A program made the translations under genes and the position numbers. From the IMG/VR virus record IMGVR_UViG_3300044623_000633, positions 1-42,040 of that record: 42,040 nucleotides of DNA; one strand, written 5' to 3'. Each line of letters begins with the position of its first letter. Within the stretch, counting starts at the first letter, position 1. Below, piece by piece: positions 638-41,733 of this stretch. The notes under the pieces were generated by a model, which was given only the letters and a program-made list of their open reading frames with translations, was not told the DNA's origin and did no database searches. The stretch is from a virus.

Positions 638-653
638 TTACTTTGATAAGTAC
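638..653. repeat. Dispersed 16-bp dyad (TTACTT-N4-AAGTAA)
   Basis: TTACTTTGATAAGTAC, one mismatch. It lies in the leader of the minus-strand gene that starts at 609, where a bound protein could block its promoter or leader. Confidence 0.75.
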
Positions 654-700
654 CGTCAGCGGTGGTGCGCTGGCGTCACTCTAGGCATGAGTCGGCATTG

Positions 701-717
701 CCTTCCATGATGGAAGG
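701..717. repeat. Perfect 8-bp palindrome
   Basis: CCTTCCAT and ATGGAAGG separated by a single G. It lies in the 368-bp non-coding stretch 610-977 upstream of the minus-strand gene at 609, so it could be an operator or form a small hairpin in the leader. Confidence 0.4.
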
Positions 718-748
718 GTTACAGAATGGTGATAGGGAAAGGGCGCAT

Positions 749-970
749 ATGACTAATGACTAATAACTAGAGTAGGTAATGCCGGGAGTAAGACGGTGTT
801 ACGGGGTCGATCACACCGTCGCTCCTTTGGAGGAAACTCAGGGGGTCTCCTTCTCTATTAGTTATTAGTTATTAGTTATATCATATAGAAAGAGAGTTTC
901 TCACTGACGAAACAAGGGGTTACGAGGAAATGTAATGACTAATGGATTTTTTGGACTGCTAGTCATTAAC
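749..970. repeat. Iteron-like heptamer cluster ACTAATR in both orientations
   Basis: This gene-free stretch holds copies of a heptamer ACTAATA/G. They occur as a forward run at 752-770, an inverted run of three perfect ATTAGTT units at 857-877, and a forward copy at 938-944 followed by an inverted TAGTCATTA near 961-968. The 10-mer ATGACTAATG is repeated exactly at 749-758 and 935-944. The forward and inverted runs could pair as a long stem around the 792-820 inverted repeat. Clustered short repeats in an AT-rich patch of a GC-rich genome resemble iterons at replication origins or clustered operators. Neither role is proven. No gene is seen from 610 to 977. Confidence 0.55.
792..820. repeat. 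Inverted repeat, 8-bp arms
   Basis: GACGGTGT at 792-799 pairs perfectly with ACACCGTC at 813-820 around a 13-bp loop. No T-run follows on either strand, so it is more likely a protein site or part of the repeat cluster around it than a terminator. Confidence 0.45.
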
Positions 971-977
971 TTTATTG

Positions 978-993
978 TTACTTCGCGAGGTAG
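978..993. repeat. Dispersed 16-bp dyad at a stop codon
   Basis: TTACTTCGCGAGGTAG, two mismatches. Its first three bases are the stop codon of the minus-strand gene 978-1319. Confidence 0.6.
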
Positions 994-1319
994 CGGATGA
1001 CTTTTACTACATCGATGGCGTACTGGGGCACGCGCTTGGTCTCATGGAATGATGTGATGCCGTTGACCTGAGTATTCTTCACGATAGGCGCTGGCGTGGA
1101 GACCGGGAGAGCGGCTTTGTTGGTGGTGCGGGCCTTGGTGAACCGTGTACGCTTCTTGAAGACACGGTCCTTGGGATTGCACATCGGAAGTGCCGAGCGA
1201 GTGGCGGCCTTGCGGATAGCGATGGGATCGCGAACTTCTTCGAGCTTGGCGAGGGTCTTCTCGGCAAGTTTCAGCGTGATCTGCGCATTGCGTGCGGCAG
1301 CTTCCGTGGGTGAAAACAT
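978..1319 (-). CDS. Small basic protein, possible regulator
   Basis: The product is a 113-residue, lysine/arginine-rich protein (MFSPTEAAARNAQITLKLAE...). I chose the ATG at 1319 because GGAG lies seven bases upstream, on GGAGAAGTAAG. A longer frame with an upstream start at 1361 lacks such a site. A predicted N-terminal helical stretch (residues 1-35) is followed by a basic middle (RVFKKRTRFTKARTTNKAAL) that could bind nucleic acid. I do not recognise the family. It is the first gene read leftward from the control region, and the dyad at 1321-1336 overlaps its ribosome binding site while another covers its stop. That position is typical for an autoregulated phage regulator, which makes it one of the two best candidates for the dyad-binding protein. 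This is inference from position and charge only. Confidence 0.65.
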   Translation of the reverse strand: MFSPTEAAARNAQITLKLAEKTLAKLEEVRDPIAIRKAATRSALPMCNPKDRVFKKRTRFTKARTTNKAALPVSTPAPIVKNTQVNGITSFHETKRVPQYAIDVVKVIRYLAK

Positions 1320-1320
1320 C

Positions 1321-1336
1321 TTACTTCTCCAAGTTA
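1321..1336. repeat. Dispersed 16-bp dyad over a ribosome binding site
   Basis: TTACTTCTCCAAGTTA, one mismatch. On the minus strand it contains the GGAGAAGTAAG ribosome binding site of the 978-1319 gene. Confidence 0.65.
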
Positions 1337-1387
1337 CATCATAGCACCGGGGAAAGCTCACGCGCTCCAGCGGTGTTATGATGTAAC
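1333..1387. repeat. Long inverted repeat, 16-bp arms
   Basis: GTTACATCATAGCACC (1333-1348) and GGTGTTATGATGTAAC (1372-1387) are inverted copies with one mismatch, separated by 23 bp. The repeat lies immediately upstream of the leftward gene at 1319, and its left arm overlaps the end of the dyad at 1321-1336. It could be an operator for a dimeric or tetrameric regulator, or a leader hairpin. The inner part, CATAACACC, recurs at 1881 and 2190. Confidence 0.6.
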
Positions 1388-2702: not shown

Positions 2703-5700
2703 CCGACAGTGTTGTTGTGGTGACCGACAGCTCGACCAACACCATCGAGATCATTGGTGCCGGTCCGCAGGGTGCCCAGGGTCCGCAGGGCGTCAAGGGT
2801 GACGTCGGTGATGTGAACCCGGAGATGTATACGCTGCGCGACCAGGCTGCGGCCAGCGCAGTCAATGCGGCCACCAGTGCCACTGACGCCAATACTGCCA
2901 AAGTGGCTGCGCAGACTGCCAAGACGGGTGCGGAGACGGCCCAGACGGGTGCCCAGACGGCCAGAACCGGGGCTGAGACTGCCCAGACCGCCGCTGAGAC
3001 TGCCCAGACGGCGGCCGAGACCGCCCAGACGGCGGCTGCCGCGAGTGCGTCTACGGCCACTACACAGGCATCTGAGGCGGCTACTTCGGCTACCACGGCC
3101 ACCACCAAGGCATCTGAGGCGGCTACTTCGGCAAGTAACGCATCGGCGTCGGCTACCACGGCCACCACGCAGGCTGGTATTTCTACGACCAAGGCGGGTG
3201 AGGCGGCTACTTCGGCGACGAATGCTGCCACGTCGGCGACCAATGCTGCTTCGTCGGCTACTTCTGCGTCCACGTCGGTAACGACGGCCACAACGAAGGC
3301 CAGCGAAGCTTCTGCCTTTGCGACCAACTCTGCCAATAGCGCGTCTTCGGCCACCACTCAGGCTGCCTCTGCCACATCAAGTGCCTCGGCGGCCGCTACT
3401 TCGGCAAGTAACGCCTCGGGCCATTCGACACAGGCAGGCGTGCAGGCTTCAAACGCTGCGGCCAGCGCTGCTACTGCAACCACTCAGGCTGGTATCGCAA
3501 CAACGCAGGCTACTAACTCCGCGACAAGTGCTACCACTTCGGCCACACAGGCGGGTCTTGCCGCTGCCGGTGCCGCCACTTCGACCGCCAAGGCATCCGA
3601 AGCCGCTGGCTCAGCCGCAGCTATTCAGGCAACCTTCGGCAACGCGGCCTCCGTCGCCGCCCTGGCCCAGAACGCGCAGGCGGCAGCATCCCTGGCGCAG
3701 GGCTACGCTGCCAGCGCATCGAGCGTCGTGCAGCAGGATCTGTCTGGCGTCACCGCCCAGGCGCTCCACCGCAGCCCCAACGCCATCACGGCGATGACGA
3801 TCTACGACACGTCCAAGGACAGCGACGGCGGCGCGTGGACCAAGAAGTGCCAGCAGACGAGCTGGTACAACGAAGCACTTGCAGGGAAGTGGCTCGGGCC
3901 GCAGGCGAGTGAAACATTTGCGCGTTATGAAGGTGCCACACTCGGTTCTGAGTTGGTCACGAATGGTAGCTTCAACAGTGGCACGACTGGGTGGAGCAAT
4001 ACTGGCGTCGGTACTGGTTCGTTGTCGGCGGCTGGCGGTAAGGCAACTTGTACGACAGTCAACGGGTCAAACTATGTGGTGCTTTCGCAGGCACTTACAA
4101 CTGTATCAGGAGCACTCTACAAAGTTTCGTTTAATATCACGCGCATCTCTGGATCAGTGGATTACTACGTGCAATTTGGAAGCGCTACGCAGAACTACGC
4201 TAGTGGTCCTAGAACGCTCTATTTGATAGCTAACAGCTCTTCCGTTTTGCTGACATTTCAGACGTCCGGAAATGCCGCTGGCGTCTTCGAGATAGATGAC
4301 ATCACCGTCAAACAAGTCACCGCGCTCACCACCGCGAGCAACGACTACTTCCAGCTCACGTCTGACGGCAAGTTCTACCGGCTGTGGAAGAACATTTTTA
4401 CGAACTCCAACACATTTACGAACTACAATTACCCGACTACCCCGACGACCTTCACGGCGAACAGCCCAACGGTAACTGCGCCCGACGGAACGAACACCGC
4501 TACAGAAATCATATTTGCGGGCGGCGCTGGCAACGATTTTGCCTACCGCTCCCAAGCTATAACAGCGGGAGTTACCTTCTCTGTCTGGATGCGTACTGCA
4601 AGCGGCACGCGCACTGTTGGTCTACGCTGCTGGGCAAACATGCAGGTTGTCTCCTGCACCGTCACTACGACGTGGCAGCGTTTCTCCATCACATTGACCT
4701 CTAACGAAAACACTGCAATCGGCTTCGACAACCGTACCGGCCTGGGCGGCGCTGGCGGAGCAGGATCAATCTTTGTCGCCAACGCGCAGCTTGAGTACGG
4801 CTATTCCGCAACTGAATACGAAGCCAAGACCACCATCGGCTCCACCTCCGAAATCTTCCGTGGCAACAAGGCAGAGTTCCCGAAGCTCGCGGCTATTGTG
4901 GCGGAAGCTGGCAACGTCAACATCTACGACCTGACTGAGCCGGGGCGTCCCATGTGGATGCGGTTTTGGAAGCCTGGCACCGATGGTATTGCCAATTTTC
5001 TATCGCACTCTTCATCTCCCGTGTCTTCAATCAATGCGCTCAATGGGTATGTGGCAGTCGGCCAGTCCAATGGTCAGCCTTTCTATGGGCACTTGAGGAT
5101 CGCCAATTTTGCCGCAGACCAAATGCGCAAGTACACCGGTTACTACGGCACAAACTATGTTTCTCCGGTGCGGATCAGCCAGAGGAACGACCATGCTGTT
5201 TATTTCTCGATTACGAGCGATTATGGCAGCGATGGTCCAGGTATAGGCGGCAGCGGAAGTGTGTCTTCTATCGCTATGACCGTCCTCCCCGACGCACCCA
5301 TGGACACTTCCACTGGCCTGCGCGTGCCGACGATTGCGGTGGCAACGTCGGGCGGCGTGTCTGTGATCAAGCACAATGGCACGGTGGTGAATAGCTCCAA
5401 TACGACTGCCGCAAATGCGGTCGTGCTTTCGCCCAACTTGCTGGAGTGGGGAATTTCTTCTTCGGCTATCCAAGCCAACTGGCTATTGGCAAAGAACCCC
5501 GGCATTCTTGGGGCCAGTTTTGCTGGTACGGCATCCAATTGGTTTAAGGCATTCGTCAACGCCGAGACGAGTTTCTATTCACAAGTTCTGGTCCCTGCCA
5601 GTAGATTGAGGGGGCGAATTTCAAAGGTAGCGACCAACAGCTACGTCAGCCTGACGGCTCATAACGTCGACAACACTGCTAAAAACCTTGGTGCGGCAGT

Positions 5701-8395
5701 CACCAACACCTTCAACACCGGCTGGATGACCGGCGACATCCGCCGCGCGTACCTGAGCGATGTTACTGCGGAAAGTATCAGCAACGCATCACTCATTACA
5801 AATGGCACTTTCGATACTAATACTACTGGTTGGACTGCTCTTCAGTCAGCTCTTAGCGTTGATACGCAGAGGCTCAAGGTTGCAAACTCTGGCGCGCAAT
5901 TCGGTGTTGCCTGGCAATTGCTATCCACTGTTACGGGCAAGTCGTATCGAGTTGAAGTCGATGTAACGATTGGCACAGCGACACAGGCGTATCTCAGGGT
6001 CGGTCTTACCGCAGCAGGGTTACAGCTGTTGGATGTGAATAGAAATTCGAGTGGAAAGCTGTCCGGTATATTCACCGCAATCGGCACCACGACATACGTT
6101 CATGTTCTCAACACAAACGAAAACAACGGTTATAACTTCTATGACAATATTTCCGTAGTCGAGGTGGTTGCAGACCGATCCTATAGGGCAGCATCCGCTC
6201 CGATCTTCGGAACCCTCACCAAATCCCAACTCGCCAGCGGCACATCGCTCGTAGGCTTCTCTGGCTTCAGCGCATCCAACTACCTCCGCGAACCCTACAG
6301 CGCCGACCTTGACTTCGGCACTGGCGAGTTCACCGCGACCGCGTGGGTGAATGTTCCGGCTACGTTGCCGGATACGAGCTTCCCTAATGTTGGCTCTGAA
6401 TTGGTCACAAACGGTGATTTTAGCAGTGGAACGACTGGCTGGAACCTTTTCCAAACTAGCGGAACAGCAACCATTACCGTTTCCAGCGGCGCTGCAACTC
6501 TGACAAACCCTGCTGGGTCAACATACTCAACAGCCTATCAAGGGTTTACAACTGTTATTGGCCGCACATACAAGGCAACCGGACAGATTATATCTGCTTC
6601 CGGAGCGGACTTTAACGCACTCAGGAAAAGCGATATTATATCTGGCGGATCAAACGACGTTAATATTTACGGTGGAAATGGCGTCTTAACTCCCGGTACT
6701 GGTTCTGTTTATTTTCAAGCGACAGCCACAACGACTTATGTTTTGGCTCAGGTCAACAACGCAACAAACACTATAACCTTTGATAACGTCTCAGTCCGAG
6801 AAGTCGGACCCACCGTTATCGCGGATCGCGCCTTCTCTTCTGGCCCCCGGATCAGGCTTGCGGTCAACAGCCTTGGACGCCTTACCGCCGAAGCCTTCGA
6901 CGGCACCACCACGCGCACGGTCATCACGACCGCCGCATACAACACCGCAACATGGTTGAAGGCCCGCGTGCGCTACACCACCGACGGTTCCCTGGCGATC
7001 ACAGTCAACGGGCGCGAGGTGGCTGTCACGCGCGGCACGCCGCTTGCCAGCATGACGCTGGGCAAGAACATGATTAGCCAGAGTGAGAGTTTTGATCTCG
7101 CTCCGTGGAATAACTCCGCCGGTGGCACTGGTGTCGCTTGCGTAGTCACTTCAAATGCTGGCAACGACCCGAACGGCAACCCCGCCGCAGATCGCATCCA
7201 GTTCAATCTTGGCGGCGGTACAGTTGCCGCTGACTTTACGCGCCGCATTCAGGCCGTCAACACACCGGCCACTGCGCATGTCTTCAGTATCTACGTGAAG
7301 TCCTACGATGGCACCTCCACCTATAGCATGCACATCGTTGGCCCTACTGGCGCTACGACAGCGATTGCGGTCACTGGATCATGGCAGCGGTTTGAAGTGA
7401 CTGGAACTGGACCCGGTTCAAACCTCAGCTACGCTATCGGCCTCCGTGGCGGCCAGACCCCGACCAACGACAACACCGCTGACGTTCTTGTGTGGGGCGC
7501 TCAGGTTGAGACTGGTTCGACAGCGACCGCCTACGCGGCGACCAATGTTGCGCCCCTCACCATCGGCAACAACTTCGCCCTCGACGCTCCGTTCCCCGGC
7601 TCCATCGCGCTCCTCAAGCTGGGCGCAACGGTGCCGACCCCGGAGCAGGACCAGTTCATTTACGAGCAGGAGAAGCAGCTCTTCCGCGCTGGCGCACAGA
7701 GCGTCCTGCCGGACAGCGGCGCAGTCCTCGACATGGCCTACGACGACGCCACCGACCGCTGGGCCGCCGTGTCTGGCACCAACGAGAGCTACTGGACTGG
7801 CCTCGTTCGCAACTCTGTGACGCCTGTCCCGGCTGGCACCTACACCAGGATCGTCGCTAACTCTGGCGTCGAACTCAACTCCCGCATCACCACCAACCCC
7901 GGCGTCGATGTCTCGATCCCGGCCTATGGTCTCCGCGAGGAACTTGTTCGCCGCGCCGAGGCGGCTTCCCGCCTTGGGAAGGAACTTGCCACCTACGACT
8001 ACGTGGGCGGTTTCACGGGAAACATCACAACTGGCTCAACCGCCATCGCCAGTGTCGCTGGCCTGACCTACCCGACCAGCTACATCGGTGCCCGCATCTC
8101 TGGCACCGGCATCCCGACGAACGCCACGGTTGTCGCCGTGTCTGGCACCACGATCTACATCTCCGCCGCCGCAACTGCGACGACGTCCACGCTGTCGATC
8201 TCCTTCTTCGACTTCATTCTCCCGGCAGGCATGGAGGCCAAGACCGTGTTCAACGCCGGGGTCCAGACGCGCGAGGGAACAACCGGGGCCACATTTAGCA
8301 GGCTCTACGACGGCTTCATCGAGACGATCCGGTTTGCCGTTGTCCCCGGCGCAACCGCCCTTGTCACCATCCAGGCACAGAGGATTTCGCAATGA
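2699..8395 (+). CDS. Giant modular tail fibre / receptor-binding protein
   Basis: The product is 1898 residues, starting at TTG 2699 (TTGA overlap with the previous stop; GGAGG about eight bases upstream). Order of parts: a short collagen-like stretch (GAGPQGAQGPQGVKGDVGDV, about residues 20-40); a long Ala/Thr/Ser repeat likely to form a trimeric coiled coil (about 45-340); then beta-rich modules. Three carbohydrate-binding-like modules begin with ELVTNGSF or similar (about 417-540, 1027-1158, 1232-1370). Two modules of a second type begin KNIFTN/KNMISQ (about 564-711, 1456-1619). A LamG-like segment surrounds module 1232-1370, as if split by it. The C-terminal part ends with a compact beta region. 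It should form the host-binding fibre. The modules are lower in GC than the rest, a sign of recent shuffling. Confidence 0.85.
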   Translation: MTDSVVVVTDSSTNTIEIIGAGPQGAQGPQGVKGDVGDVNPEMYTLRDQAAASAVNAATSATDANTAKVAAQTAKTGAETAQTGAQTARTGAETAQTAAETAQTAAETAQTAAAASASTATTQASEAATSATTATTKASEAATSASNASASATTATTQAGISTTKAGEAATSATNAATSATNAASSATSASTSVTTATTKASEASAFATNSANSASSATTQAASATSSASAAATSASNASGHSTQAGVQASNAAASAATATTQAGIATTQATNSATSATTSATQAGLAAAGAATSTAKASEAAGSAAAIQATFGNAASVAALAQNAQAAASLAQGYAASASSVVQQDLSGVTAQALHRSPNAITAMTIYDTSKDSDGGAWTKKCQQTSWYNEALAGKWLGPQASETFARYEGATLGSELVTNGSFNSGTTGWSNTGVGTGSLSAAGGKATCTTVNGSNYVVLSQALTTVSGALYKVSFNITRISGSVDYYVQFGSATQNYASGPRTLYLIANSSSVLLTFQTSGNAAGVFEIDDITVKQVTALTTASNDYFQLTSDGKFYRLWKNIFTNSNTFTNYNYPTTPTTFTANSPTVTAPDGTNTATEIIFAGGAGNDFAYRSQAITAGVTFSVWMRTASGTRTVGLRCWANMQVVSCTVTTTWQRFSITLTSNENTAIGFDNRTGLGGAGGAGSIFVANAQLEYGYSATEYEAKTTIGSTSEIFRGNKAEFPKLAAIVAEAGNVNIYDLTEPGRPMWMRFWKPGTDGIANFLSHSSSPVSSINALNGYVAVGQSNGQPFYGHLRIANFAADQMRKYTGYYGTNYVSPVRISQRNDHAVYFSITSDYGSDGPGIGGSGSVSSIAMTVLPDAPMDTSTGLRVPTIAVATSGGVSVIKHNGTVVNSSNTTAANAVVLSPNLLEWGISSSAIQANWLLAKNPGILGASFAGTASNWFKAFVNAETSFYSQVLVPASRLRGRISKVATNSYVSLTAHNVDNTAKNLGAAVTNTFNTGWMTGDIRRAYLSDVTAESISNASLITNGTFDTNTTGWTALQSALSVDTQRLKVANSGAQFGVAWQLLSTVTGKSYRVEVDVTIGTATQAYLRVGLTAAGLQLLDVNRNSSGKLSGIFTAIGTTTYVHVLNTNENNGYNFYDNISVVEVVADRSYRAASAPIFGTLTKSQLASGTSLVGFSGFSASNYLREPYSADLDFGTGEFTATAWVNVPATLPDTSFPNVGSELVTNGDFSSGTTGWNLFQTSGTATITVSSGAATLTNPAGSTYSTAYQGFTTVIGRTYKATGQIISASGADFNALRKSDIISGGSNDVNIYGGNGVLTPGTGSVYFQATATTTYVLAQVNNATNTITFDNVSVREVGPTVIADRAFSSGPRIRLAVNSLGRLTAEAFDGTTTRTVITTAAYNTATWLKARVRYTTDGSLAITVNGREVAVTRGTPLASMTLGKNMISQSESFDLAPWNNSAGGTGVACVVTSNAGNDPNGNPAADRIQFNLGGGTVAADFTRRIQAVNTPATAHVFSIYVKSYDGTSTYSMHIVGPTGATTAIAVTGSWQRFEVTGTGPGSNLSYAIGLRGGQTPTNDNTADVLVWGAQVETGSTATAYAATNVAPLTIGNNFALDAPFPGSIALLKLGATVPTPEQDQFIYEQEKQLFRAGAQSVLPDSGAVLDMAYDDATDRWAAVSGTNESYWTGLVRNSVTPVPAGTYTRIVANSGVELNSRITTNPGVDVSIPAYGLREELVRRAEAASRLGKELATYDYVGGFTGNITTGSTAIASVAGLTYPTSYIGARISGTGIPTNATVVAVSGTTIYISAAATATTSTLSISFFDFILPAGMEAKTVFNAGVQTREGTTGATFSRLYDGFIETIRFAVVPGATALVTIQAQRISQ
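2924..3028 (+). repeat. Five 21-bp tandem repeats coding heptads
   Basis: Units of 21 bp starting at 2924, 2945, 2966, 2987 and 3008 encode T-(G/A)-A-(E/Q)-T-A-Q/R heptads inside the fibre coiled coil. The period fits a heptad repeat, and copy number may vary between relatives. Confidence 0.75.
3123..3138. repeat. Dispersed 16-bp dyad in fibre gene
   Basis: CTACTTCGGCAAGTAA, one mismatch. It lies in the repetitive Ala/Thr/Ser coding region, so repeat coding (ATSASN) alone could have produced it. Confidence 0.5.
3396..3411. repeat. Dispersed 16-bp dyad in fibre gene
   Basis: CTACTTCGGCAAGTAA, identical to 3123-3138 and subject to the same caution about the ATSASN repeat. Confidence 0.5.
5763..5778. 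repeat. Dispersed 16-bp dyad in fibre gene
   Basis: TTACTGCGGAAAGTAT, two mismatches. It is at the junction where a low-GC carbohydrate-binding-like module begins. Confidence 0.5.
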
Positions 8396-8881: not shown

Positions 8882-8897
8882 TTACTGCACGAAGTAG
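8882..8897. repeat. Dispersed 16-bp dyad after the fibre block
   Basis: TTACTGCACGAAGTAG, two mismatches. It starts two bases after the stop of the 8392-8880 gene, at the junction with the integration region. Confidence 0.55.
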
Positions 8898-9139: not shown

Positions 9140-10189
9140 ATGGCATCAATTTATCGTCTACGCTCAAAGTGGCGCGCTCAGGTACGCCTGAAGAATAAAC
9201 CCCCTCAGTCGGAAGTATTTAAGACAAAATCCGAGGCGCAGGCTTGGGCAAGGGCGATGGAAGGCGCACTGCACACGACTAAGGGCGGTGACGAGTTTGT
9301 ATTATACTCTGCAATACATGATCAATACTTCGATACACTCAATCGTGTTGGCTATACGAAGCAGCAAGTCTGCAAGAAGTTGCTTGAGTACTGGAAAGAC
9401 TATCGTCTGGGTGAGATAACTACTTCAAAGATCTCGGATTACGCCGTAAAGCGGCAGCGTGACGGGCTCGCACCGAACACCGTGCTGGGTGAGTTGATCT
9501 ACATGGGCGTCGTCCTCCAGCATGGCGGCATCCTCGCCAGCAACCAGGATGCGCTGCGGGCAAAACTCTCCCTTGCCGGTGCCATCAAGACACTGCGCAA
9601 TGTTGGGGTGGTGGGGGACGCGAGGAAGCGCAAGCGCCGCCCGACCGACGAGGAGCTCAAGAAGCTCAGAGATTACTTTTTGAACCGGCCGCGCTCCCAG
9701 GTGCCGGTGTGGGAGATGATCCTGTTCGCCATTGGCACCTGCATGCGGCTGGGCGAGATCGTTGGCGCTGGCGGCGTGGTCTGGGATGACGTGGATGAAG
9801 CCAAGCGCACCCTCGTCATCCGGGGACGCAAAGATCCCACTGACCCCGATGGATTTGATCAGACCATTCCGCTGCTTACCGGGCACGCCACGGTACTTGG
9901 TCAAGTAATCGACCCGCTGGCCATCATCCTGCGCCAGCAGTCGGCCTACCGTAAGCAGGGACGAATTTTCCCCCACTCGTTGAACTCAGTGAGCCTGCCG
10001 TTCTCCGAGGCGTGCAAGAAGTTGCATATCGAAGACCTGCATTTTCATGATCTCAGGCATGACGGGATTTCGCGAATGTTCGTGCCGGGAGGTTACTCGA
10101 TCCCCGAGGTCGCTGCCGTATCTGGCCATAAAAGTTGGAAAAACCTACAGCGCTACACGCAGATAAGGCCCGAGGAGTTACATCGGTAG
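9140..10189 (+). CDS. int: Tyrosine recombinase (phage integrase)
   Basis: The product is 349 residues, a full-length tyrosine recombinase that catalyses site-specific recombination between phage and host DNA. The catalytic residues are visible: Arg203 in GTCMRLGEI, His303 and Arg306 in HFHDLRHDG, His330 in SGHKSW, and the nucleophile Tyr339 in LQRYTQ. The N-terminal part (about 1-55) resembles a small arm-binding domain, followed by a core-binding helical domain (about 55-160). The gene lies beside repeats that look like integrase arm sites, and one such repeat (9268-9276) is inside the gene. A dispersed dyad (9893-9908) is also inside it. All key residues are present, so the enzyme should be active, and the phage is probably temperate. 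Confidence 0.95.
   Translation: MASIYRLRSKWRAQVRLKNKPPQSEVFKTKSEAQAWARAMEGALHTTKGGDEFVLYSAIHDQYFDTLNRVGYTKQQVCKKLLEYWKDYRLGEITTSKISDYAVKRQRDGLAPNTVLGELIYMGVVLQHGGILASNQDALRAKLSLAGAIKTLRNVGVVGDARKRKRRPTDEELKKLRDYFLNRPRSQVPVWEMILFAIGTCMRLGEIVGAGGVVWDDVDEAKRTLVIRGRKDPTDPDGFDQTIPLLTGHATVLGQVIDPLAIILRQQSAYRKQGRIFPHSLNSVSLPFSEACKKLHIEDLHFHDLRHDGISRMFVPGGYSIPEVAAVSGHKSWKNLQRYTQIRPEELHR
9893..9908. repeat. Dispersed 16-bp dyad in integrase gene
   Basis: GTACTTGGTCAAGTAA, one mismatch. It is read in the frame coding TVLGQVI, unlike the TSxSN frame used in most other genes. Confidence 0.7.
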
Positions 10190-10281: not shown

Positions 10282-10587
10282 ATGGGGTGTTTGGTGGGTC
10301 GTACTGAGGCGTTGCGCGGCAAGCTGGAATTGCTAACTCAGGAAGAACTTGCGCAGGTGCTAGACGTTACATCCGACACACTCCGAGAATGGCGAAGGCT
10401 CAAGCAGGGTCCTGACTTTGTAAAGGCGGGCAAGAACGTGATGTACCGCGAGCGTGACGTGCTCGCATGGCTGACGGTCAACGTTGTTATCGTCATGCGA
10501 ACCGCGCTCGCAGTGGCCTGCGCCACCATAACATCATTGCACCATTATATGTGCCCGTACTGGTGCCCACTCGTACAGATGGTTTGA
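10282..10587 (+). CDS. Small helix-turn-helix protein (excisionase or regulator type)
   Basis: The product is 101 residues with an N-terminal helix-turn-helix: LTQEELAQVLDVTSDTLREW (about residues 18-37), followed by FVKAGKNVMYRERDVLAWL. This order (helix-turn-helix, then a Y-R-x-x-D-V-x-x-W stretch) is that of the HTH_17/excisionase family of small DNA-binding proteins. The C-terminal 35 residues are hydrophobic, cysteine-containing and unlike the family, so the frame may have lost its original stop. The start is uncertain: ATG 10282 and GTG 10294 are both possible and neither has a strong ribosome binding site. Next to an integrase, a directionality factor is the simplest role. It is also one of the candidate binders of the dispersed dyad. 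Confidence 0.65.
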   Translation: MGCLVGRTEALRGKLELLTQEELAQVLDVTSDTLREWRRLKQGPDFVKAGKNVMYRERDVLAWLTVNVVIVMRTALAVACATITSLHHYMCPYWCPLVQMV

Positions 10588-19674: not shown

Positions 19675-19690
19675 TTACTTTGCGAGGTAG
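19675..19690. repeat. Dispersed 16-bp dyad over a ribosome binding site
   Basis: TTACTTTGCGAGGTAG, two mismatches, ending two bases before the ATG at 19693 and containing its GAGG. Confidence 0.6.
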
Positions 19691-35200: not shown

Positions 35201-37538
35201 CCCGCTGGCCCGCCGTGGCGAGTGGCGAGTGCAGGGCGTCTACAAAATCGAGGCACCCAAGAACGCCCGCAAGCTGTCGGACAACGAGTTCGAGTTCAAG
35301 TCGCGCGATGAGGCGTCTGCCTATGCTGAGAAGCAGGACACGAAGCCGACGATCAAGCAGGTCTACGTGGACAAGACTACCAATGAGATGTTTGGCGTCG
35401 ACAAGGACGGCGTCAAGGTCAAGATCTCGAAGAACGACACCGATGCCGAGCCCCGCTGGCGCGTTACTGTCCAGAACCGCCACGTTGAGTTCGCCAACTC
35501 AGACAAGGAAGCCAAGAAGATCGCCGACCAGCTTCGCGCTGACGGCCTGAAGGACGTTGACGACGTGCAGCGGCGCACCAATGATCTCCCCAACGGTGCC
35601 AATGCAGACATGCTCTCGGAGCAGATGAAGCAGTTGGCTTCAACGCTGGACCGGCGGGAGGCGTTTTCCGACCTCTCGTCTACGCAGCGCGAGGAGCTCC
35701 GTCAGGTACTTCAGGAAGTAAGTCTCCGCTACCTGGGGTCGACCCGCATCCAGTCGCACCTGATCCGCCGCCGCAACGTCGAGGGCGCTTCCCTGGACGC
35801 AGTGCGCAACGCCAATGACTATGTGGATGCCGCGTCCGGCTACATCGCCAAACTCGAAATCCAACCCCAGATTGACGCTGCCTTCAAGGAAGGAGATCGT
35901 CGCCTTGCGGTTCTTGGAAAGCAGGGAACCGGCGCTGCCGCTGGCGCGAGCGAGCTTGTTCGCGAACTGAAGAAGCGGGCTCAGTCGTCGAACATCGATG
36001 AGGCGAACGGTCTGGCCGACGTGGCCATCCGCCGCCTGACGCAGTTGGCGTTCCTCCGCTACCTCGCTTCGCCCGCATACTCGTTCTTCAACGCCATGCA
36101 GCCCAACCTCGTTGCACTCCCGGCCCTTGCGGCAGAGTACGGCGAGGGTCGGGCGGTCATCGAAATGAATGTCTCCTACTATGACCTTGGTGGGCCAAAG
36201 ATGATCGCTACCGGCGTCGTCGATACCGTCAAGGCATTTGGCGGCAGCGAAGGCACTGATCATCTGAAGGTTGCCTCGGCCAAGCTCAAGAACGCGAAAG
36301 AGCGGGAAATGCTGGAGGAGCTCCGCAAGATCGGCTTCATCGACTTCGACGCCGGTATGATGGTTGCTCGGAACCTCCAGCAGCCCGATACCCTGATGGG
36401 CCGCACCTACGATCCGGCCATGGCCTTTATCGACAACATCGGAAGGCAGGCTCCCAAGGCCATCGAAGCATTGAACCGTAGCGTCGTTGCCCTGACGGCC
36501 TACCGCCTTGCCATGAAGAAGCACGGCAGCCATGAGAAGGCCGTTCAGGACGCCAAGGACTTCGTCGACCTGACGCAGGGCACTTACTCGCAAAGTAACC
36601 AGGCCCCTGTCTTCCGCAGCAAGGGTGGCCGGATCGCGCTTCAGTTCAAGAAGTACGGCCAGATGATGTACTACAACCTCGGCCGTCAGGCTGGGCGCGT
36701 TATCCGTGGCATGAAGCCCGGTGACCGGAAGGCTGGCTTCAAGGCTCTGGCCTACACGCTTGCCGCCCACCAGATCGCTGCCGGTACGATGGGCCTGCCG
36801 TGGGAACCGGCCAAGGTGCTGATGTCTGTCCTCAACGGGCTTGGCTTCGTTGAATATGACTGGGAAGACTTCAAGGAAGATGTCGAGGAGTTCTACAAGT
36901 CGCTCGTCGGCGGAACCTTTGCGGAGATGCTGACCTACGGTGCCTCGCGTGGCCTCGGTGACTTCGCCTTCGATATGTCCAGCCGTGTTGGCATGGACAG
37001 CCTTCTCACCTTTGGATCTCCGAAGTCCTACAAGGATGAAGACGTCAAGGCGTACCTCTGGGACACGGCGGCGGGTGCGTCCGGTTCGATGGTGTCATCT
37101 GTAGCGAAGGCAGTAAGCGCGGCCTCCAACGGCGAGTGGGGCAAGTTCCTCGACGCCCTGCCGCTGAAGTTCGCGGTTGACGTTAGCAAGGCAGTCGAGA
37201 AGGGTGCGAGCGGCGACTACACTGTGCCCGAGGCAATCCTCAAGGGCACTGGCCTCACCCCGGCTTCCCAGGCCCGTGAACAGCGCAAGACCGGTATGGA
37301 AACGAAGCTGAACCGCCGCGTCAAGAGCGAGCATGACCGCCTGTTCTACGGCTACATCGATGCCGGGAACGACATGGGTAAGATCGCCAAGCTGAAGGGC
37401 CAGATCCGCGAGTGGAACGCCAAGCAGGCGAAGCTGCCCAAGGACCAGCGCGGCCAGAAGATCCGGTTCGAGACGGTTGAGAAGCGCCGCCGGGAGGAGC
37501 TGCGCGAGAAAGCAAAGAACAAGAGCGTCGATGAATAA
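29247..37538 (+). CDS. Giant 2763-residue internal virion protein with two metallopeptidase-like motifs
   Basis: This gene takes about 20% of the window. Order: acidic helical N-terminus; a glycine-rich hydrophobic region (about 211-255 and 358-372) that could contact membranes; Ala/Pro-rich linkers (about 400-505); a winged-helix-like domain (about 509-568); long charged regions; a first HExxH motif (HEGLHAY, His1284, with Glu1334 in HEFLSEA downstream); a second HExxH (HELLHAA, His1530, with VEELATYG near 1598); long coiled-coil regions; and a C-terminal domain (about 2268-2500) with FLRYLASPAYSFFNAMQPNL and VFRSKGGRIALQFKKYGQMM, the mark of PLxRFG-type phage large proteins. It is the likely third ejection protein, used to cross the envelope and perhaps to process wall or host proteins. 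Two peptidase-like sites in one chain are unusual. Six of the confident dyads are inside. Confidence 0.8.
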   Translation: MDALTFDDVPFERDTEEVAAEKVDYADVSRPSGTAPAQPRRVPAISFDDVPFEDATPEETAPEEALFSGISSDPMGDFNPAALGVSNSLLQRGRQFATGVTESAASVPEGMAITGASLDYKVKTNASQAIAMRQAQIDNLQGALDANPEMPAQQREWMQAQIDALNEGIQKSEQLAVAPIIPARDRDVYKLGDATREAVKSAIGAPDPNDDSLAGKVVTGAGNLSGIVVSSLVASAAGGPWAGIAVGTGVGVTMNQSQVYKEAIEAGVDEETALRASDWAALVGATDIIPVSRALKLLPQSVRREVGNAVMKRIVELGQNGAEEGIQEYLQTVGNNIIAQKFYDPERGWTEDATESALIGSILGVGVGVIGQALDKTPVEKVDDKKATLEQQTALGGDAPSAPPDVDPAMAQAVAGKPVETPGEYAIRVAKERAAAQASAQPAPASPAAPPPVPMAPGKPTAPPVDPITPTVNQQAAPPSAVAGQEPSVTVGVAPTAPPPSEPAAPAPANDLAERAAAAIQESGVTSPYWLGRMLGVSANQAGDVMLQLAQNKRLLEFKNNKFKMLPVTSASNPDVNTLQETEATLAEQQKALVEGKRRTVFYPEGTKPATPPPGSKRTKIEGVGIFDYMSDKITPQEIRAAAKAGRLNELLDLGPFNKQQVAASATAGAAPVAVTERTPGGTEVKAATGTTETAPVQQQVLEATKAEPGNTVAVEDPNTVVAGRQPGRKLGDMLKPYPGEGYRLGPFSFAFYERGDGRYLRVRDRSGNNILQGTDGGEANVDVTDIWSSADPNQYEPRQGNKVGINSLENNVPPQMVGIVRDWLSGKIDENEALARIADQDLDGGQAAAPSAPAATPAPKPPVVETKKPRVLKDMSTASVRAEQEQAEQNEILADRIKGTLKGPKNQKVFKEEAESTGKNWTKAQREARSKIDTEGRKIAEANPPAANEDGFLDPNAGKQTVARAAIRARAEAMVQGAKAAGVTIPDKVSGNIDETMNLGQGGMQLVVARDFLKSLATPYKPVADHYTDFVSRDLRLRNGLTDEVISERRAEIDDKMRRSQGGDIEQIADTRQTVESDAPDNAAQSLDGRDETLSAEQQAQLDDGKTASDTVEMQGDERIVGKDDVETKVSRTAKKSIILMDEERAAKPEPLKEITADKKKEIEEKLRAAGIIMREDGESIDTTPSRPLEKSDILDTYSLADAIAEASAAKGNLVNRTVLNRILQQLGQKIAKTKVLVVDAETLAELYPGRNVDGFYDPVGKHIIFSTDFLKNGQFDAELLAHEGLHAYLANAIDSDTNLKTDIQELLDFVKDRAGNMKGARGLLDVHEFLSEAMSNPRFQNFLMNVEVTGSLASKYDVPGKKTLWSAMVNAIAKHLGISGTKNVDALAVAIRLTERAEEARTRATSQGNATPIFKFLSKKPEITKSPLFSGKPERFKEDAQGWSSAGEAADWLIANSRDEATREIIAKIRPAIENSSFSVVKTGDNVPGIIARNLNSGAMGVYWSKFDTGERALYIRADFLTEEVVAHELLHAATNTRLKEGNLTKNKGTELAQITAEFYDLQRVVVSRYNQLVRGKVNPELTRNLQILSAVSSVEELATYGLTNAKVREFFKSIPYRGGNVYTKFVDNIRRLFSIPKSDTNALTKIIELTERLVDEKFEQDTKPYAADFLRDIGTAGGSLTPMFRERNFGDELRNAGVPNDIAAELEAVLSNDLKDMDDATLAFVMDDLKSKYGTSESNDPTDDQVNKAAGKQADAINKAAEKLQKEAEEFVPRKNPGKRRLLSVKSNYQLGVDSDDYFGKYSNPLRKIAEYIERRRVRKAEILQGLGKVVEKLAAAQSKYSGSKANRAIWENFTSLMNDATMAEVHPDRPLDQQKHLGKDTLRYKWAKAQYPELAARYRALPPDLMKLWQETRDTYTDTQDEMNLGRLSNLLKLAGHPDPALAQRFFTKKATEADKKLIGPRVADLIDDTVELSKIEGPYFPLARRGEWRVQGVYKIEAPKNARKLSDNEFEFKSRDEASAYAEKQDTKPTIKQVYVDKTTNEMFGVDKDGVKVKISKNDTDAEPRWRVTVQNRHVEFANSDKEAKKIADQLRADGLKDVDDVQRRTNDLPNGANADMLSEQMKQLASTLDRREAFSDLSSTQREELRQVLQEVSLRYLGSTRIQSHLIRRRNVEGASLDAVRNANDYVDAASGYIAKLEIQPQIDAAFKEGDRRLAVLGKQGTGAAAGASELVRELKKRAQSSNIDEANGLADVAIRRLTQLAFLRYLASPAYSFFNAMQPNLVALPALAAEYGEGRAVIEMNVSYYDLGGPKMIATGVVDTVKAFGGSEGTDHLKVASAKLKNAKEREMLEELRKIGFIDFDAGMMVARNLQQPDTLMGRTYDPAMAFIDNIGRQAPKAIEALNRSVVALTAYRLAMKKHGSHEKAVQDAKDFVDLTQGTYSQSNQAPVFRSKGGRIALQFKKYGQMMYYNLGRQAGRVIRGMKPGDRKAGFKALAYTLAAHQIAAGTMGLPWEPAKVLMSVLNGLGFVEYDWEDFKEDVEEFYKSLVGGTFAEMLTYGASRGLGDFAFDMSSRVGMDSLLTFGSPKSYKDEDVKAYLWDTAAGASGSMVSSVAKAVSAASNGEWGKFLDALPLKFAVDVSKAVEKGASGDYTVPEAILKGTGLTPASQAREQRKTGMETKLNRRVKSEHDRLFYGYIDAGNDMGKIAKLKGQIREWNAKQAKLPKDQRGQKIRFETVEKRRREELREKAKNKSVDE
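29899..29914. repeat. Weak copy of the dispersed dyad
   Basis: TTACCGGAGCAGGTAA, three mismatches to the consensus but itself a perfect GTTACC/GGTAAC dyad. Weak on its own. It fits the about 1-kb spacing of neighbours. Confidence 0.35.
30949..30964. repeat. Dispersed 16-bp dyad in giant gene
   Basis: TTACCTCAGCAAGTAA, one mismatch, coding VTSASN. Confidence 0.7.
32371..32385. repeat. Dispersed dyad, 3-bp spacer, in giant gene
   Basis: TTACTGATGAAGTAA, one mismatch with a 3-bp spacer. Confidence 0.5.
33463..33478. repeat. Dispersed 16-bp dyad in giant gene
   Basis: CTACTTCGCAAGGTAA, two mismatches, coding ATSQGN. Confidence 0.6.
34456..34471. repeat. Dispersed 16-bp dyad in giant gene
   Basis: GTACTTCGGAAAGTAA, one mismatch, coding GTSESN. 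A second palindrome, GAAGTACGGTACTTC, overlaps it on the left. Confidence 0.7.
34646..34661. repeat. Dispersed 16-bp dyad in giant gene
   Basis: TTACTTCGGAAAGTAC, one mismatch, 190 bp after the previous copy and in a different reading frame (DYFGKYS). Confidence 0.75.
35706..35721. repeat. Dispersed 16-bp dyad in giant gene
   Basis: GTACTTCAGGAAGTAA, one mismatch, in the frame coding QVLQEVS. Confidence 0.7.
36584..36598. repeat. Dispersed dyad, 3-bp spacer, in giant gene
   Basis: TTACTCGCAAAGTAA, one mismatch with a 3-bp spacer, coding TYSQSN. Confidence 0.5.
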
Positions 37539-38124
37539 CTGTCTTACCTGCGGAGCGGAGTTCGAGCAGGTTGTTCGATGGCAGAAGTACTGCTCCGTGA
37601 AGTGCAACAAGAAGGCGCGGGCTTGGCCCGCCGACCGGCAGCGGCGGTGGATCAGCGGCAACTGGCGACGATATCTCAACAGGTTGGCAAACTCTGCCAA
37701 GGAGCGAGCCGAGCTGACGACAGATTTACTTCTTGAAGTACTAGAAGAGCAGGATGGTCGCTGTGCGTTGACCGGGGTTGGGCTGACAAATATCCTGATC
37801 AAGGACAGGAAGATCTGGACGAATGCGAGCGTTGACCGGATTGTTTCCGGGGGACCATATATCAGGAGCAACATCCAGTTAGTGTGTGCTGCGGTCAATA
37901 TTTTCAGATCGCAAATGTCTGTAGAAGAATTTCGAGAATGGTGCCGATTAGTTTCTAAATTTGAGGGTCTTCCCAATGCCAAAGCGCGACTATCCCAACG
38001 AGTACCAGACCTACCACGCAAAGCCGGAACAGAAGAAAAAGCGGGCAGTGCGGAACGCAGCAAGGCGGGAGATGACCGCCGAGGGGCGGGTGAAGAAGGG
38101 CGACGGAAAGGACGTCGGGCATAA
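37531..38124 (+). CDS. HNH endonuclease with N-terminal zinc finger
   Basis: The product is 197 residues. I chose the ATG at 37531, eight bases inside the end of the giant gene. Four cysteines at 4, 7, 21 and 25 (CLTCGAEF...YCSVKC) form a zinc finger. The HNH-type core follows: DGRCALTGVGLTN, then ASVDRIVSGGPYIRSNIQLV and NIFRSQMSVEEFREW, which closely matches the A-S-x-D-R-I ... G-Y-x-x-x-N-x-Q pattern of phage HNH enzymes. The last about 50 residues are read over the next gene in another frame and look random, suggesting the original stop was lost. A dyad (37726-37741) is inside. It may act in packaging or as a homing enzyme. Confidence 0.8.
   Translation: MNNCLTCGAEFEQVVRWQKYCSVKCNKKARAWPADRQRRWISGNWRRYLNRLANSAKERAELTTDLLLEVLEEQDGRCALTGVGLTNILIKDRKIWTNASVDRIVSGGPYIRSNIQLVCAAVNIFRSQMSVEEFREWCRLVSKFEGLPNAKARLSQRVPDLPRKAGTEEKAGSAERSKAGDDRRGAGEEGRRKGRRA
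37726..37741. repeat. Dispersed 16-bp dyad in HNH gene
   Basis: TTACTTCTTGAAGTAC, one mismatch, in the frame coding DLLLEVL. Confidence 0.75.
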
Positions 38125-38632: not shown

Positions 38633-38859
38633 TGCTGTTCCAGTTGGCTCTTCCACCGCTTCACATCCGATCTGAAGTTCATGAGTGCCCTGTGGTCCGA
38701 TGAGGAATACGAGGCGATGAAAAATTTACAGTTACCGCATGCAGTAACTTTAAACTTGTAATGGCAAGACCCGGTCATCTCGGTGTCGACGATCTCAATC
38801 CCGAGTTCGTCGAACACCTTCAAGAAGGGCTGTGCTCTCTTGCGGTTATATGTGCTCAT
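38629..38859 (-). CDS. Small protein, HicA/dsRBD-like in outline
   Basis: The product is 76 residues, its ATG overlapping the primase-helicase stop (ATGA). The order helix, two or three beta strands (CHYKFKVTACGNCKFFIAS) and a C-terminal helix with SSDHRALMNFRSDVKRW is that of small dsRBD-fold phage proteins related in outline to HicA. No antitoxin partner is visible, so a toxin role should not be assumed. Coupling to the primase-helicase suggests an accessory replication role. Confidence 0.6.
   Translation of the reverse strand: MSTYNRKRAQPFLKVFDELGIEIVDTEMTGSCHYKFKVTACGNCKFFIASYSSSDHRALMNFRSDVKRWKSQLEQQ
38732..38747. repeat. Weak copy of the dispersed dyad
   Basis: TTACCGCATGCAGTAA, three mismatches, but with perfect GTTAC/GTAAC ends. 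It fits the about 1-kb spacing. Weak on its own. Confidence 0.3.
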
Positions 38860-41708
38860 CCCAGAATGTTCGCCAGCTTGGGGTGGTTCATGTCTACGTG
38901 GACCAAATACTCCTGCGCCGAAACAAGGTCGGTTCCGCCTCCGAGGCGACCGGTCTTCATTTCCACGCCATATTCCTTTTCCAGCCGGTCGAGGAAGATT
39001 TTGCGGGAGTGCCCGTTCTTGGCCATCCAGTCGCTGAAGAAGCTGCTGGAGATACGCAGGATGCCATCCTCGCGCGACAGATGGATCGCCAGCCTGTTGA
39101 TGCGGGTGATATCGTTCAGTACCTGAATGGCACCCTTCGCGGGCTTGCCCCGTGATACCCAGGTCCGGTTCGTCTCCAGCATGGTCTGGCGGTTGGAGTT
39201 GAGGAAGTCAGCCAGCACCGAGCTGAGCGCCAATTCGGTGTTCATGTCGGTCGAGCTCTTGCCGATTTCCGTCCGCATGCCATTCATCGTTTCAATGAGG
39301 AACTGCTTCATTGCGGGGATATCAACCGATAGGAAGCCAAGCTCATTGGCATACTCAGCGCCCTTGAGGACAACAGACATGGCCGAGGTCCAGAAGCGCT
39401 CTGCCTGATCCGCGTTGAGCTCGCGGCTAAGGCTCACTTCATAGTCTGCGAGCTTGTCGTTGATGCTCTCATAGTTTGAGCCGAGGAACTTCGCGTACTC
39501 AAGACCGACGTGCCCAAAGTTGTATTCGAGGCTACCGACAAGGCGCTGCATGTGGGAAGTATCCACCAGTCCGTTGGTCGACTTTGATACCTGAAACTCA
39601 AACAGACGCATGAGGCCAGCCGTGGTGGACTTATTCTTCGCCGTCATCGCATCGATGAGCGTATTGTTAGTAGCTGAGACGAGCAGCGTGTTCCACGATC
39701 CCGACTCGCGGAGCGTCGTGTCGGCGTTCATGCGGGACTTCTCGCGACCGCCCGTAATGTTGAAGACGAGGTTGGTGAAGTTCTTGACCTGCTCCTCGCT
39801 CTTGATCTCGTCCCAGTAGTAGGGGAGGTGCTTGAGCTTACCAATCTTGCCAAGGATCGAGTTACTTGTGTCAGTAAGAGCCGCCATCGCCATGACGGGG
39901 TGGCCCCACACAGCCTGAGCGCACTTCATGGCGGTCGTCTTGCCGATACCGGACTCGGTCGAGTAGGAACTCAACAGCAAGCCACCGTGGCCGGTAAGCT
40001 GCACCAGAGGGCCAGCGAACGCCGAGGCGAGGATCACATTGAGTGCTGGGCGGTTCTGGGCGCAGATGATGTCGGCAACGTCCTGCCATACCCGGCGCTC
40101 ACCCTTGGGAGAGTACTGATACGACAGCACCGCATCGGGATCTGCGGCAGGGCGGTCACTGTGTTTACCCCAGACGCGCCCGCCGTAAGCGAAGCCGTCG
40201 ATCTTGCCGTCAGGTATAGACCACCCGAACGGCTGGGCAGCGACCACGCAGTCTTTGGTCGCCTGAAGTTTCTGAATCCATGACATGAAAAATTCCTTCA
40301 AATATTTCGCTTCTTTCTCGCTTGTAAACATCCCCTTGGAGCAGAGGAATTTGGACAGGCCGTCCTTCGCGCCAATTACTTCAGCAGGTATGTCGAACGC
40401 GGTGCGCTTCTTGTCGGCCAGAATAGTCGTGAAGTGGAGCGACCAGGGGGAGGGCGAGAGCCACCCGGACCAAATTGGATAATGCGATAGCGTGATGGAG
40501 AAGGGTGTACCGTCGTCATGAACAGCCCGCACGGCGATGGTGCCGTTGGGGTTGCGCGTGAAGCGATCCGGCAAGGTCTTATCCACGTCATTTGCCGCCG
40601 CCTGCGGGAAGTTCAGCGGGCTCTTGTTCTGGATCAGGAGCGGGCAGCCTTTGCACTCAGGAGCGCCGTAACCGGCGATCTTGGAGCACTTGGGCCAGCC
40701 GAGGTTCTTCTCCTTCTGCTTCGCAACGGCGCGGTCAAAGAGTTCGTCCGTGGCGTCCTTGTTGTAGCCGGGATGCTTCTCCGACATTTTATGGAAGGCA
40801 TCGCGCCCGTCCTCAACAAAGGTGGCCAGTGACGCAGTCATGAACCAGAGCGGGTTGGGGTTGTCCTTGCCGCCTGTCCCAATCGTGCGGGATACAAAGC
40901 CGCAGTGCCGGGCAACGTCGTCGATTATGATAGGCGGTGCTGCCCTCGTCTCGATGCCAGCACCTAGCTCGTCATTGGCCGTAAGGTTGGTAGCCGTGCC
41001 CATGGGAAGGGCCGGTGCTTCGCCAATGTAATGGTGTAATGCCTGACGGACCTCGTCCACTGAGACGTCTGCGCCGAGGCTCAGCAACTTCACGGGCTTG
41101 GGGTCAGCGCCCTTGTGGTTGAAGGTGCCGGGAACGCGGAGGATGCGGGCAGCGTCCACCGTGCATTGGCTGTCGCACTTAAGGCCCAAGTCCTGGGCCG
41201 CGCGGGCGAGGGCGTCAGCCAGCACCTGCCACTCCTCGCGGGAGAGCTCCCGGTCCAGCGCCCAGTGGACGTGGAAGCCGCCAGATCCTGATGCCACGAC
41301 GGCCGTGGGCTTGGGCATACCTGTTGAAGTAATGAAGTCCTTCAGGGCTTGGAGGGCTTCCTTGGTGTCGGCGTATGCACCTTCCTTCACGTCGATGTCG
41401 ATGTAGAGGGATTTGACCGCTACGGCGTCATTGGTTGATCGGAGAGCCTTCCGGTACTTGAAGCCACGCTTCGAGGTCTTCTCTTCCATGCGCCCTTGGG
41501 CGCTCATGGCTGCGTAGATATCCTTCGGCTCGTTGGTCTTTTGTAGCCACTCCAGCGTCTTGACAAACTCGTCTACGCTGGCGCAAGCCCGGCCGTCCCA
41601 GAATTTCCTGCCGTTCTCTCCCGGTTGGCTCCAATGGACGTTGATCCAGGACTTGCCATCTACGGGGGTCGGCAGCATTCGAGACGCGAATTGATGCGCG
41701 TTTTCCAA
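38856..41708 (-). CDS. Primase-helicase with DUF927-type ATPase domain
   Basis: The product is 950 residues from a TTG at 41708, with AGGAGC eight bases upstream. The N-terminal primase-type domain has the acidic motif LYIDIDV (Asp104, Asp106), SGSGGFHVHW (140-149) and DAARILRVPGTFNHK (185-199), as in archaeo-eukaryotic-type primases of plasmids and phages. A zinc-type knot follows (Cys341, Cys352, Cys355). The C-terminal half is DUF927-like: STESGIGKTT (583-592) is Walker A and HLPYYWDEI (627-635) is Walker B. It should unwind and prime DNA at the origin. Since no phage DNA polymerase is seen, host polymerase is probably recruited. Dyads lie at 39862, 40376 and 41317 inside and at 41718 over the ribosome binding region. 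Confidence 0.85.
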   Translation of the reverse strand: MENAHQFASRMLPTPVDGKSWINVHWSQPGENGRKFWDGRACASVDEFVKTLEWLQKTNEPKDIYAAMSAQGRMEEKTSKRGFKYRKALRSTNDAVAVKSLYIDIDVKEGAYADTKEALQALKDFITSTGMPKPTAVVASGSGGFHVHWALDRELSREEWQVLADALARAAQDLGLKCDSQCTVDAARILRVPGTFNHKGADPKPVKLLSLGADVSVDEVRQALHHYIGEAPALPMGTATNLTANDELGAGIETRAAPPIIIDDVARHCGFVSRTIGTGGKDNPNPLWFMTASLATFVEDGRDAFHKMSEKHPGYNKDATDELFDRAVAKQKEKNLGWPKCSKIAGYGAPECKGCPLLIQNKSPLNFPQAAANDVDKTLPDRFTRNPNGTIAVRAVHDDGTPFSITLSHYPIWSGWLSPSPWSLHFTTILADKKRTAFDIPAEVIGAKDGLSKFLCSKGMFTSEKEAKYLKEFFMSWIQKLQATKDCVVAAQPFGWSIPDGKIDGFAYGGRVWGKHSDRPAADPDAVLSYQYSPKGERRVWQDVADIICAQNRPALNVILASAFAGPLVQLTGHGGLLLSSYSTESGIGKTTAMKCAQAVWGHPVMAMAALTDTSNSILGKIGKLKHLPYYWDEIKSEEQVKNFTNLVFNITGGREKSRMNADTTLRESGSWNTLLVSATNNTLIDAMTAKNKSTTAGLMRLFEFQVSKSTNGLVDTSHMQRLVGSLEYNFGHVGLEYAKFLGSNYESINDKLADYEVSLSRELNADQAERFWTSAMSVVLKGAEYANELGFLSVDIPAMKQFLIETMNGMRTEIGKSSTDMNTELALSSVLADFLNSNRQTMLETNRTWVSRGKPAKGAIQVLNDITRINRLAIHLSREDGILRISSSFFSDWMAKNGHSRKIFLDRLEKEYGVEMKTGRLGGGTDLVSAQEYLVHVDMNHPKLANILG
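39862..39877. repeat. Dispersed 16-bp dyad in primase-helicase gene
   Basis: TTACTTGTGTCAGTAA, one mismatch. Confidence 0.7.
40376..40391. repeat. Dispersed 16-bp dyad in primase-helicase gene
   Basis: TTACTTCAGCAGGTAT, two mismatches. Confidence 0.6.
41317..41332. repeat. Dispersed 16-bp dyad in primase-helicase gene
   Basis: ATACCTGTTGAAGTAA, two mismatches. Confidence 0.55.
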
Positions 41709-41717
41709 TCGCTGCTC

Positions 41718-41733
41718 CTACTTCAAAAAGTAA
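41718..41733. repeat. Dispersed 16-bp dyad at the primase-helicase start
   Basis: CTACTTCAAAAAGTAA, one mismatch. On the minus strand it runs into the AGGAGC ribosome binding site of the TTG at 41708. Confidence 0.75.

Follow-up and report, generated by a model that had tools for sequence, protein, structure and literature searches.

The DNA considered here (the window, 42,040 bases; IMG/VR record IMGVR_UViG_3300044623_000633) is a contig of viral DNA whose genes, among them those for portal, terminase and internal virion protein, are podovirus-like. Scattered through it is a 16-bp dyad, TTACTT-N4-AAGTAA, which recurs in different versions among related phages and whose presence follows that of one early protein family, called W028 below. 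The isolated phages nearest to the window are the Rhizobium phages RHph_TM29, TM27A, TM27B and TM3_14A, with 56% identity in the terminase and 38% in the primase-like protein; no literature on RHph_TM29 was found under its name. The window ends interrupt two different early genes. The left end (1-609, minus strand) encodes the N-terminal 203 aa of a W028-family protein, the candidate binding protein of the dyads, and the right end (41789-42040) resembles the C-terminus of W074. The left-end product matched the hidden Markov model (HMM) of the W028 family with E=7e-25, scored before its inclusion in the family. Circular closure at the ends was rejected: the joined open reading frame (ORF) is W028-like in its first part and like the W074 C-terminus in its second, and the window is thus a linear fragment, not a complete genome.

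With up to two mismatches allowed, the window holds 28 copies of the dyad: two perfect, 18 with one mismatch and eight with two. A pattern search returns the same 28 starts that an earlier, sequence-only reading had listed, including the 20 with at most one mismatch and the perfect pair at 1756 and 23824. The excess over chance claimed there is borne out, as dinucleotide-preserving shuffles of the window (n = 100) gave a mean of 0.38 copies and a maximum of 3. The set had also been staked on two further points, that a codon-preserving shuffle should not reproduce the count and that related phages should have the sites. Both hold: synonymous-codon shuffles of the coding part (n = 100) gave a mean of 1.5 and a maximum of 4 copies against 18 observed, which occupy all three codon offsets, and TTAC..GTAA dyads occur family-wide, as described below. 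Ten of the 28 dyads are non-coding, with coding DNA taken as 92% of the window. The spacer is practically fixed at 4, since spacers of 0-2 and 5-12 yield at most one match each (at most one mismatch). Spacer 3 gives a side set that belongs to a second spacing class known in relatives: TTACTT-N3-AAGTAT at 339-353 inside the W028-like gene, TTACTT-N3-AAGTAA with perfect arms at 12896-12910, and sites with one mismatch at 32371-32385 and 36584-36598. The statement that the dyads cover the whole genome is true of relatives of about 57-66 kb but does not apply to the window, which is a fragment.

Five dyads gather in the early control region at 638-1771. The first (638-653, TTACTTTGATAAGTAC) lies immediately upstream of the W028-like gene, 28 bp before its ATG. 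The next holds the stop codon of an ORF at 978-1361 (minus strand) (978-993), and another covers the Shine-Dalgarno-like sequence of this leftward ORF, which probably starts near 1318 (1321-1336). They are followed by sites at 1622-1637 and, perfect and in a non-coding stretch, 1756-1771. The ORF at 978-1361, with dyads over both its ribosome-binding region and its stop codon, probably encodes a 112-aa basic protein, for which no homologue or family was found. No sigma-70-like promoters were found in 600-2400. Further dyads lie inside a 1898-aa tail-fibre-like gene (3123-3138, 3396-3411 and 5763-5778), right behind a gene that ends at 8880 (8882-8897), and inside the gene (9140-10189, plus strand) of a tyrosine integrase (9893-9908). 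The integrase (phrog_1, E=7e-39; PF00589) is a temperate trait. It adjoins a gene for an HTH_17 protein (10282-10587, plus strand) that is excisionase-like, and the same gene pair occurs on a Bradyrhizobium contig. In the virion genes, dyads are found inside the large terminase gene (11938-11953), between the small terminase and portal genes (13352-13367), at 17671-17686, where the site shares an alignment column with a site of the relative G004, in the gap behind the major capsid gene (19675-19690), and, perfect, inside the internal virion protein gene (23824-23839). Sites at 26058-26073, 27212-27227 and 28703-28718 are followed by those at 30949-30964, 33463-33478, 34456-34471, 34646-34661 and 35706-35721 inside a single ORF of 2763 aa (29247-37538), which stands in the virion gene block and has homologues in several relatives. 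The site at 37726-37741 is non-coding by the gene set used. A primase-helicase-like gene (38856-41708, minus strand) contains dyads at 39862-39877, 40376-40391 and 41317-41332 and has another immediately upstream (41718-41733). Apart from the dyads, the tail-fibre-like gene has alanine/threonine-rich, 42-base periodic repeats at 2894-3554.

For comparison, 80 related viral loci were fetched via the capsid protein, and 24 records, designated by G numbers, were read whole or nearly whole in addition to RHph_TM29. In a motif-free search of each genome for all 5-mer dyads with spacers of 0-14, the TTAC..GTAA dyad ranks top in most relatives, with Poisson probabilities down to 10^-72 where about 0.1 copies are expected. 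All versions share the core TTAC-N7/8-GTAA, as a rule within a fuller GTTAC..GTAAC; inner arm bases and spacing vary from phage to phage, with GTTAC-based arms in a 6-4-6 or 7-3-7 geometry depending on the phage. TTACTT-N4 arms are found in the window, G000 and G004, TTACCT-N4-AGGTAA in G010 and RHph_TM29, TTACC(C)-N4 in G018 and G020, and TTACCG-N3-CGGTAA in G007, G011 and G012. Other N3 versions occur singly (TTACGG in G014, TTACAG in G013, TTACCC in G023). Under a slightly wider rule the counts are 66 in G004, 62 in G010, 60 in G023 and 59 in RHph_TM29 (61 by another count). In this family, whose hosts are rhizobia-like bacteria, the dyad recurs at a density of roughly one per 1-2 kb. Among 46 distantly related phage or prophage loci that served as controls, 45 have no comparable dyad (none better than 10^-6.5), and the single exception resembles an array of repetitive extragenic palindromes (REP). 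This array, in a Candidatus Magnetomicrobium locus (L164), consists of 18 copies of GTGCG-N4-CGCAC, partly tandem and with flanks in common. Two relatives, G005 (L103-L104) and G026 (L095-L098), have both the 15- and the 16-bp spacing class in one genome, and the classes favour different inner arms (GTTACCAC-c-GTGGTAAC versus GTTACCtcgcgaGGTAAC in G005), as if the DNA were bound in two ways or by two proteins. In G017 (L137-L138), a relative that lacks the GTTAC dyad, TCACT-N4-AGTGA occurs six times in 26.8 kb, possibly a switched specificity.

The site in RHph_TM29 is a symmetric GTTACCTY-NN-RAGGTAAC, and its base counts show no bias relative to transcription. Gene boundaries are favoured in this phage, with 11 of the 59 sites 5-20 bp before start codons (1.2 expected) and 15 at stops (2.5 expected), yet the majority of sites are intragenic. 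The sites are spaced more evenly than random in RHph_TM29, G010, G023, G005, G012 and G014 (coefficient of variation 0.59-0.68 vs 0.94-0.98). About 20 of the dyad-bearing loci have a dyad in the gap behind the capsid gene, the sequences differing. Positions of coding sites mostly differ between phages, and the primase-like gene and the internal virion protein gene are the only ones with coincidences clearly above chance, which suggests that individual sites come and go at a maintained total. A site-by-site comparison of G012 with the dyad-free G006 found only three alignable sites.

With G010 as the seed, 66 conserved protein families were examined for whether their presence matches that of the dyads. 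W028, an early protein of 219-381 aa (EVB31_028 in RHph_TM29), is the sole family found in all ten large dyad-bearing relatives and in none of the five dyad-poor ones. Dyads are present in 18 of 18 phages or prophages with W028, and W028 is present in every dyad-bearing relative that was tested and is long enough. In a blind test, two contigs fetched by W028 similarity alone both carry dyads; each belongs to a different spacing class, the one that its W028 type had predicted. Of the 18 W028 genes, which include those of the two blind contigs and two Bradyrhizobium copies, 15 are preceded at a distance of 6-71 bp by a dyad with at most one core mismatch; against a baseline of 19 of 88 RHph_TM29 genes with a site in a comparable stretch, the binomial probability is 4e-8. 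The phages that have only short spacers (15-bp core) form one clade in the W028 tree (support 90/88). G006, which has neither W028 nor dyads, falls inside or beside the short-spacer group in portal, capsid, primase and helicase trees, sister to G011/G012 and with good support; W028 and the dyads therefore seem to have been lost together in G006. G021 keeps the W050 and W054 families and lacks both W028 and dyads. Near W028 in several relatives, and conserved in most, is a gene pair of the type seen in L086 (26608-27714 and 28796-30079), which encodes an ATPase by the depositors' annotation and a DUF2201 protein resembling von Willebrand factor A (VWA) and metallopeptidase proteins.

Two other products had been put forward as binders by the sequence-only reading, and neither is supported. 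The ORF at 978-1361 has no homologue in 25 relatives. The HTH_17 product of 10282 is a poor candidate because it has no blastp match in RHph_TM29, G004 or G010, which have 59-66 sites each, and the cut gene at 1-609 is the better one. AlphaFold models of two W028 members (predicted local distance difference test scores, pLDDT, of 84 and 82) are all-helical. A viral structure library gave only two significant matches, both to uncharacterised phage proteins, and the better one, 242 aa long and 67% identical, presumably corresponds to the protein of RHph_TM29. The family has a conserved basic stretch with the consensus K-x-N-x-S-K-x-R-Q, possibly a DNA contact.

Several observations weigh against W028 as a genome-wide binder. 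The family has no recognisable DNA-binding domain or named family in Pfam, PHROGs or NCBIfam, both models match no solved structure in PDB, and several members are acidic. The dyad-poor set includes only one near-complete genome, and G021 is a fragment. The joint loss in G006 is not specific to W028, since the neighbouring W050, W053, W054 and W055 families are gone as well. The match of spacing class to W028 type is only moderate evidence because other genes follow roughly the same phylogeny. Finally, spacing is no more even than chance in the window, G018 and G026.

Two Bradyrhizobium genomes carry relatives. In Bradyrhizobium sp. 139, the phage genes lie in two stretches, one at 29-61 kb of a contig and the other in the initial 25 kb of a contig of 170 kb. 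Since ORFs beyond them read as chromosomal from their sequence (e.g., glycyl-tRNA synthetase beta-like), and a large ORF at the edge of the phage region reads as serine-recombinase-like, the element appears to be an integrated prophage. Exact N8 sites are concentrated in phage DNA: 18 of the 26 in 7.9 Mb fall in 57 kb of phage DNA in this genome, and 11 of 19 in 8.7 Mb fall on a 60.6-kb phage contig in the other. The second Bradyrhizobium phage has a probable tyrosine recombinase gene next to an HTH_17 gene. Set beside it (L219-L222), the closely related and apparently undescribed sp. 139 prophage (L223-L228) differs in recombinase type, which, as far as the two ORFs can be read, amounts to a swap of integrases inside a single lineage. 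RHph_TM29, G004, G010 and most other relatives gave no match to PF00589 or PF00239, so that the dyads do not depend on integration. Silencing of a prophage, a role suggested by the sequence-only reading, is compatible with the integrated examples; a purely lysogenic role is not supported, as most relatives with the densest sets, RHph_TM29 among them, have no recognisable tyrosine or serine integrase. That reading's suggestion of partition is disfavoured: ParB-parS sites were rejected, as the ParB N-terminal domain (PF02195) had no match in the 23 records tested, whereas control genomes did match.

The palindromes of the Streptomyces phage phiC31 may be set beside the present dyads; they are conserved inverted repeats, mostly intergenic sites of the early region, that form a set bound by the phage repressor. 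A dispersed palindromic set is not unique to the present phages. In the cluster O (Corndog) mycobacteriophages, a 17-bp dyad of unknown function, TGTTCGG-N3-CCGAACA, is present 34 times; its copies are frequent between genes but also occur within them and are not promoter-linked (PMC4351075). These phages have no integrase, and no binder has been identified, although a dimeric DNA-binding protein was predicted (PMC4351075). Both sets comprise at least 30 symmetric genome-wide sites, one third or more of them in genes (28 + 4 in the window, 59-61 in RHph_TM29). They differ in that the TGTTCGG 7-3-7 arms are replaced here by GTTAC-based arms in phages of other hosts, and in that the present specificity varies among relatives, some members are temperate and a partner gene can be proposed; for Corndog neither variation nor partner has been reported. 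The present dyads could work most like the Corndog dyads, as their functional counterpart, with no arm sequence or demonstrated protein in common. In the Bacillus phage SPbeta, a 15-bp element (SPBRE) in about ten promoter regions is bound by MrpR, a repressor with a tyrosine-recombinase fold (PMC10516654). There too, a single phage protein (here a candidate) is paired with numerous copies of one short element in the DNA that encodes it. The present sites, however, occur about once per kb and include coding DNA, most do not stand before genes, and the W028 fold is unmatched.

We consider it probable, at roughly 60%, that the dyads are double-stranded DNA (dsDNA) sites of a phage-encoded, sequence-specific dimer, most likely W028, that acts on the whole phage genome. 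A symmetric, unoriented and spacer-constrained site, phage-specific versions, confinement to phage DNA and the link to an early gene all fit such a dimer, and lineage-specific versions of arms and spacer are what one would expect of a protein that has to recognise the genome it comes from. A possible but doubtful alternative is that the sites are classical stoperators, at which the immunity repressor of a temperate phage stops prophage transcription. The stoperators of L5 (cluster A) are at least 20 dispersed asymmetric 13-mers whose orientation follows transcription and to which a monomeric repressor with a helix-turn-helix (HTH) binds (PMC9283540). The HTH of L5-type repressors is N-terminal; W028, the candidate here, shows no HTH family. 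The present set resembles them as one short sequence in many copies genome-wide, many near gene boundaries. Temperate members (the integrase of the window, the serine-recombinase-like gene at the edge of the Bradyrhizobium sp. 139 prophage), the early-region cluster and the sites upstream of an early gene are also in keeping with this alternative. Against it, the 15/16-bp cores are symmetric and, unlike those of L5 (PMC9283540), show no orientation relative to transcription. Dense sets are also found where neither a tyrosine nor a serine integrase could be detected in the phage, and the sites are not accompanied consistently by any repressor-type HTH gene. The sequence-only reading was thus right to set these operator-like sites apart from L5 stoperators.

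It is rather unlikely that the binder is another phage protein, for example a small or fast-evolving HTH protein, with W028 as a co-factor or as a regulated neighbour in the early operon. The missing DNA-binding fold of W028 would be explained in this way, and other early families are common in relatives, such as the winged-helix-looking small protein G010_46473. However, no other family matches the dyads as well in its presence; the winged-helix-looking family was found in G006, which has no dyads, but in neither G018 nor G023. Binding by a host protein, be it a nucleoid protein, a global regulator or a methyltransferase, is very improbable. Phages of one host group could have a host factor in common, and a bipartite palindrome recalls some methyltransferase or regulator targets. 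Yet only about eight exact N8 sites lie outside phage DNA in each of the two Bradyrhizobium genomes, which makes a host factor unlikely, the arms vary among related phages, and the sites vanish with a phage gene. Still less credit can be given to RNA hairpins (translation or antitermination signals) or ribosome-binding elements. TTACCT-type phages have AGGT within the arm, and the sites before start codons in RHph_TM29 would suit such a role, but most sites are away from starts and the arms of the window and of short-spacer phages lack AGGT; mismatches taken relative to the coding strand in 12 genomes show no preference for G-U wobble over C-A (100:90). Mobile repeats or a protein-motif artefact can be dismissed: although one frame of several window sites translates to Tyr-Phe-x-Lys-Tyr, all codon offsets are used, the codon shuffle falls far short of the count, coding sites stand mostly at different places in each phage, and the conserved flanks of REP or mobile repeats are absent, with at most about 0.3 bit beyond the 16 bp (weak G/C only).

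If W028 is indeed the binder, as we infer, a dimer of its product would bind the dyads as dsDNA and may regulate the early operon to which its gene belongs by way of the dyad that closely precedes the start codon. Some 25-65 sites would be occupied along the phage genome, at gene starts, gene ends and in coding DNA alike. The effect would then be on the entire phage DNA molecule. Transcription may be shut down or damped, giving silencing and, in temperate members, superinfection immunity; alternatively or in addition, phage DNA may be organised apart from host DNA. The prophage examples favour silencing and immunity, and the integrase-free phages and the even spacing favour physical organisation. 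We suggest, tentatively, that these phages represent a new class in which a fast-diverging early protein of the W028 family, with an unmatched fold, reads a self-specific GTTAC-type palindrome about once per kb. In integrase-free and temperate relatives alike, the palindrome would be a self tag for whole-genome binding and not a set of promoter operators.

Dispersed dyads of the Corndog type have so far been without a known binder or role. Here the site varies by phage, comes and goes with one gene, and can be found both in a Rhizobium phage isolate and in Bradyrhizobium genome sequences, so that a direct test is possible. If true, the proposal would add a new DNA-binding family and provide a system in which to ask by what means a phage labels and manages its genome within the cell.

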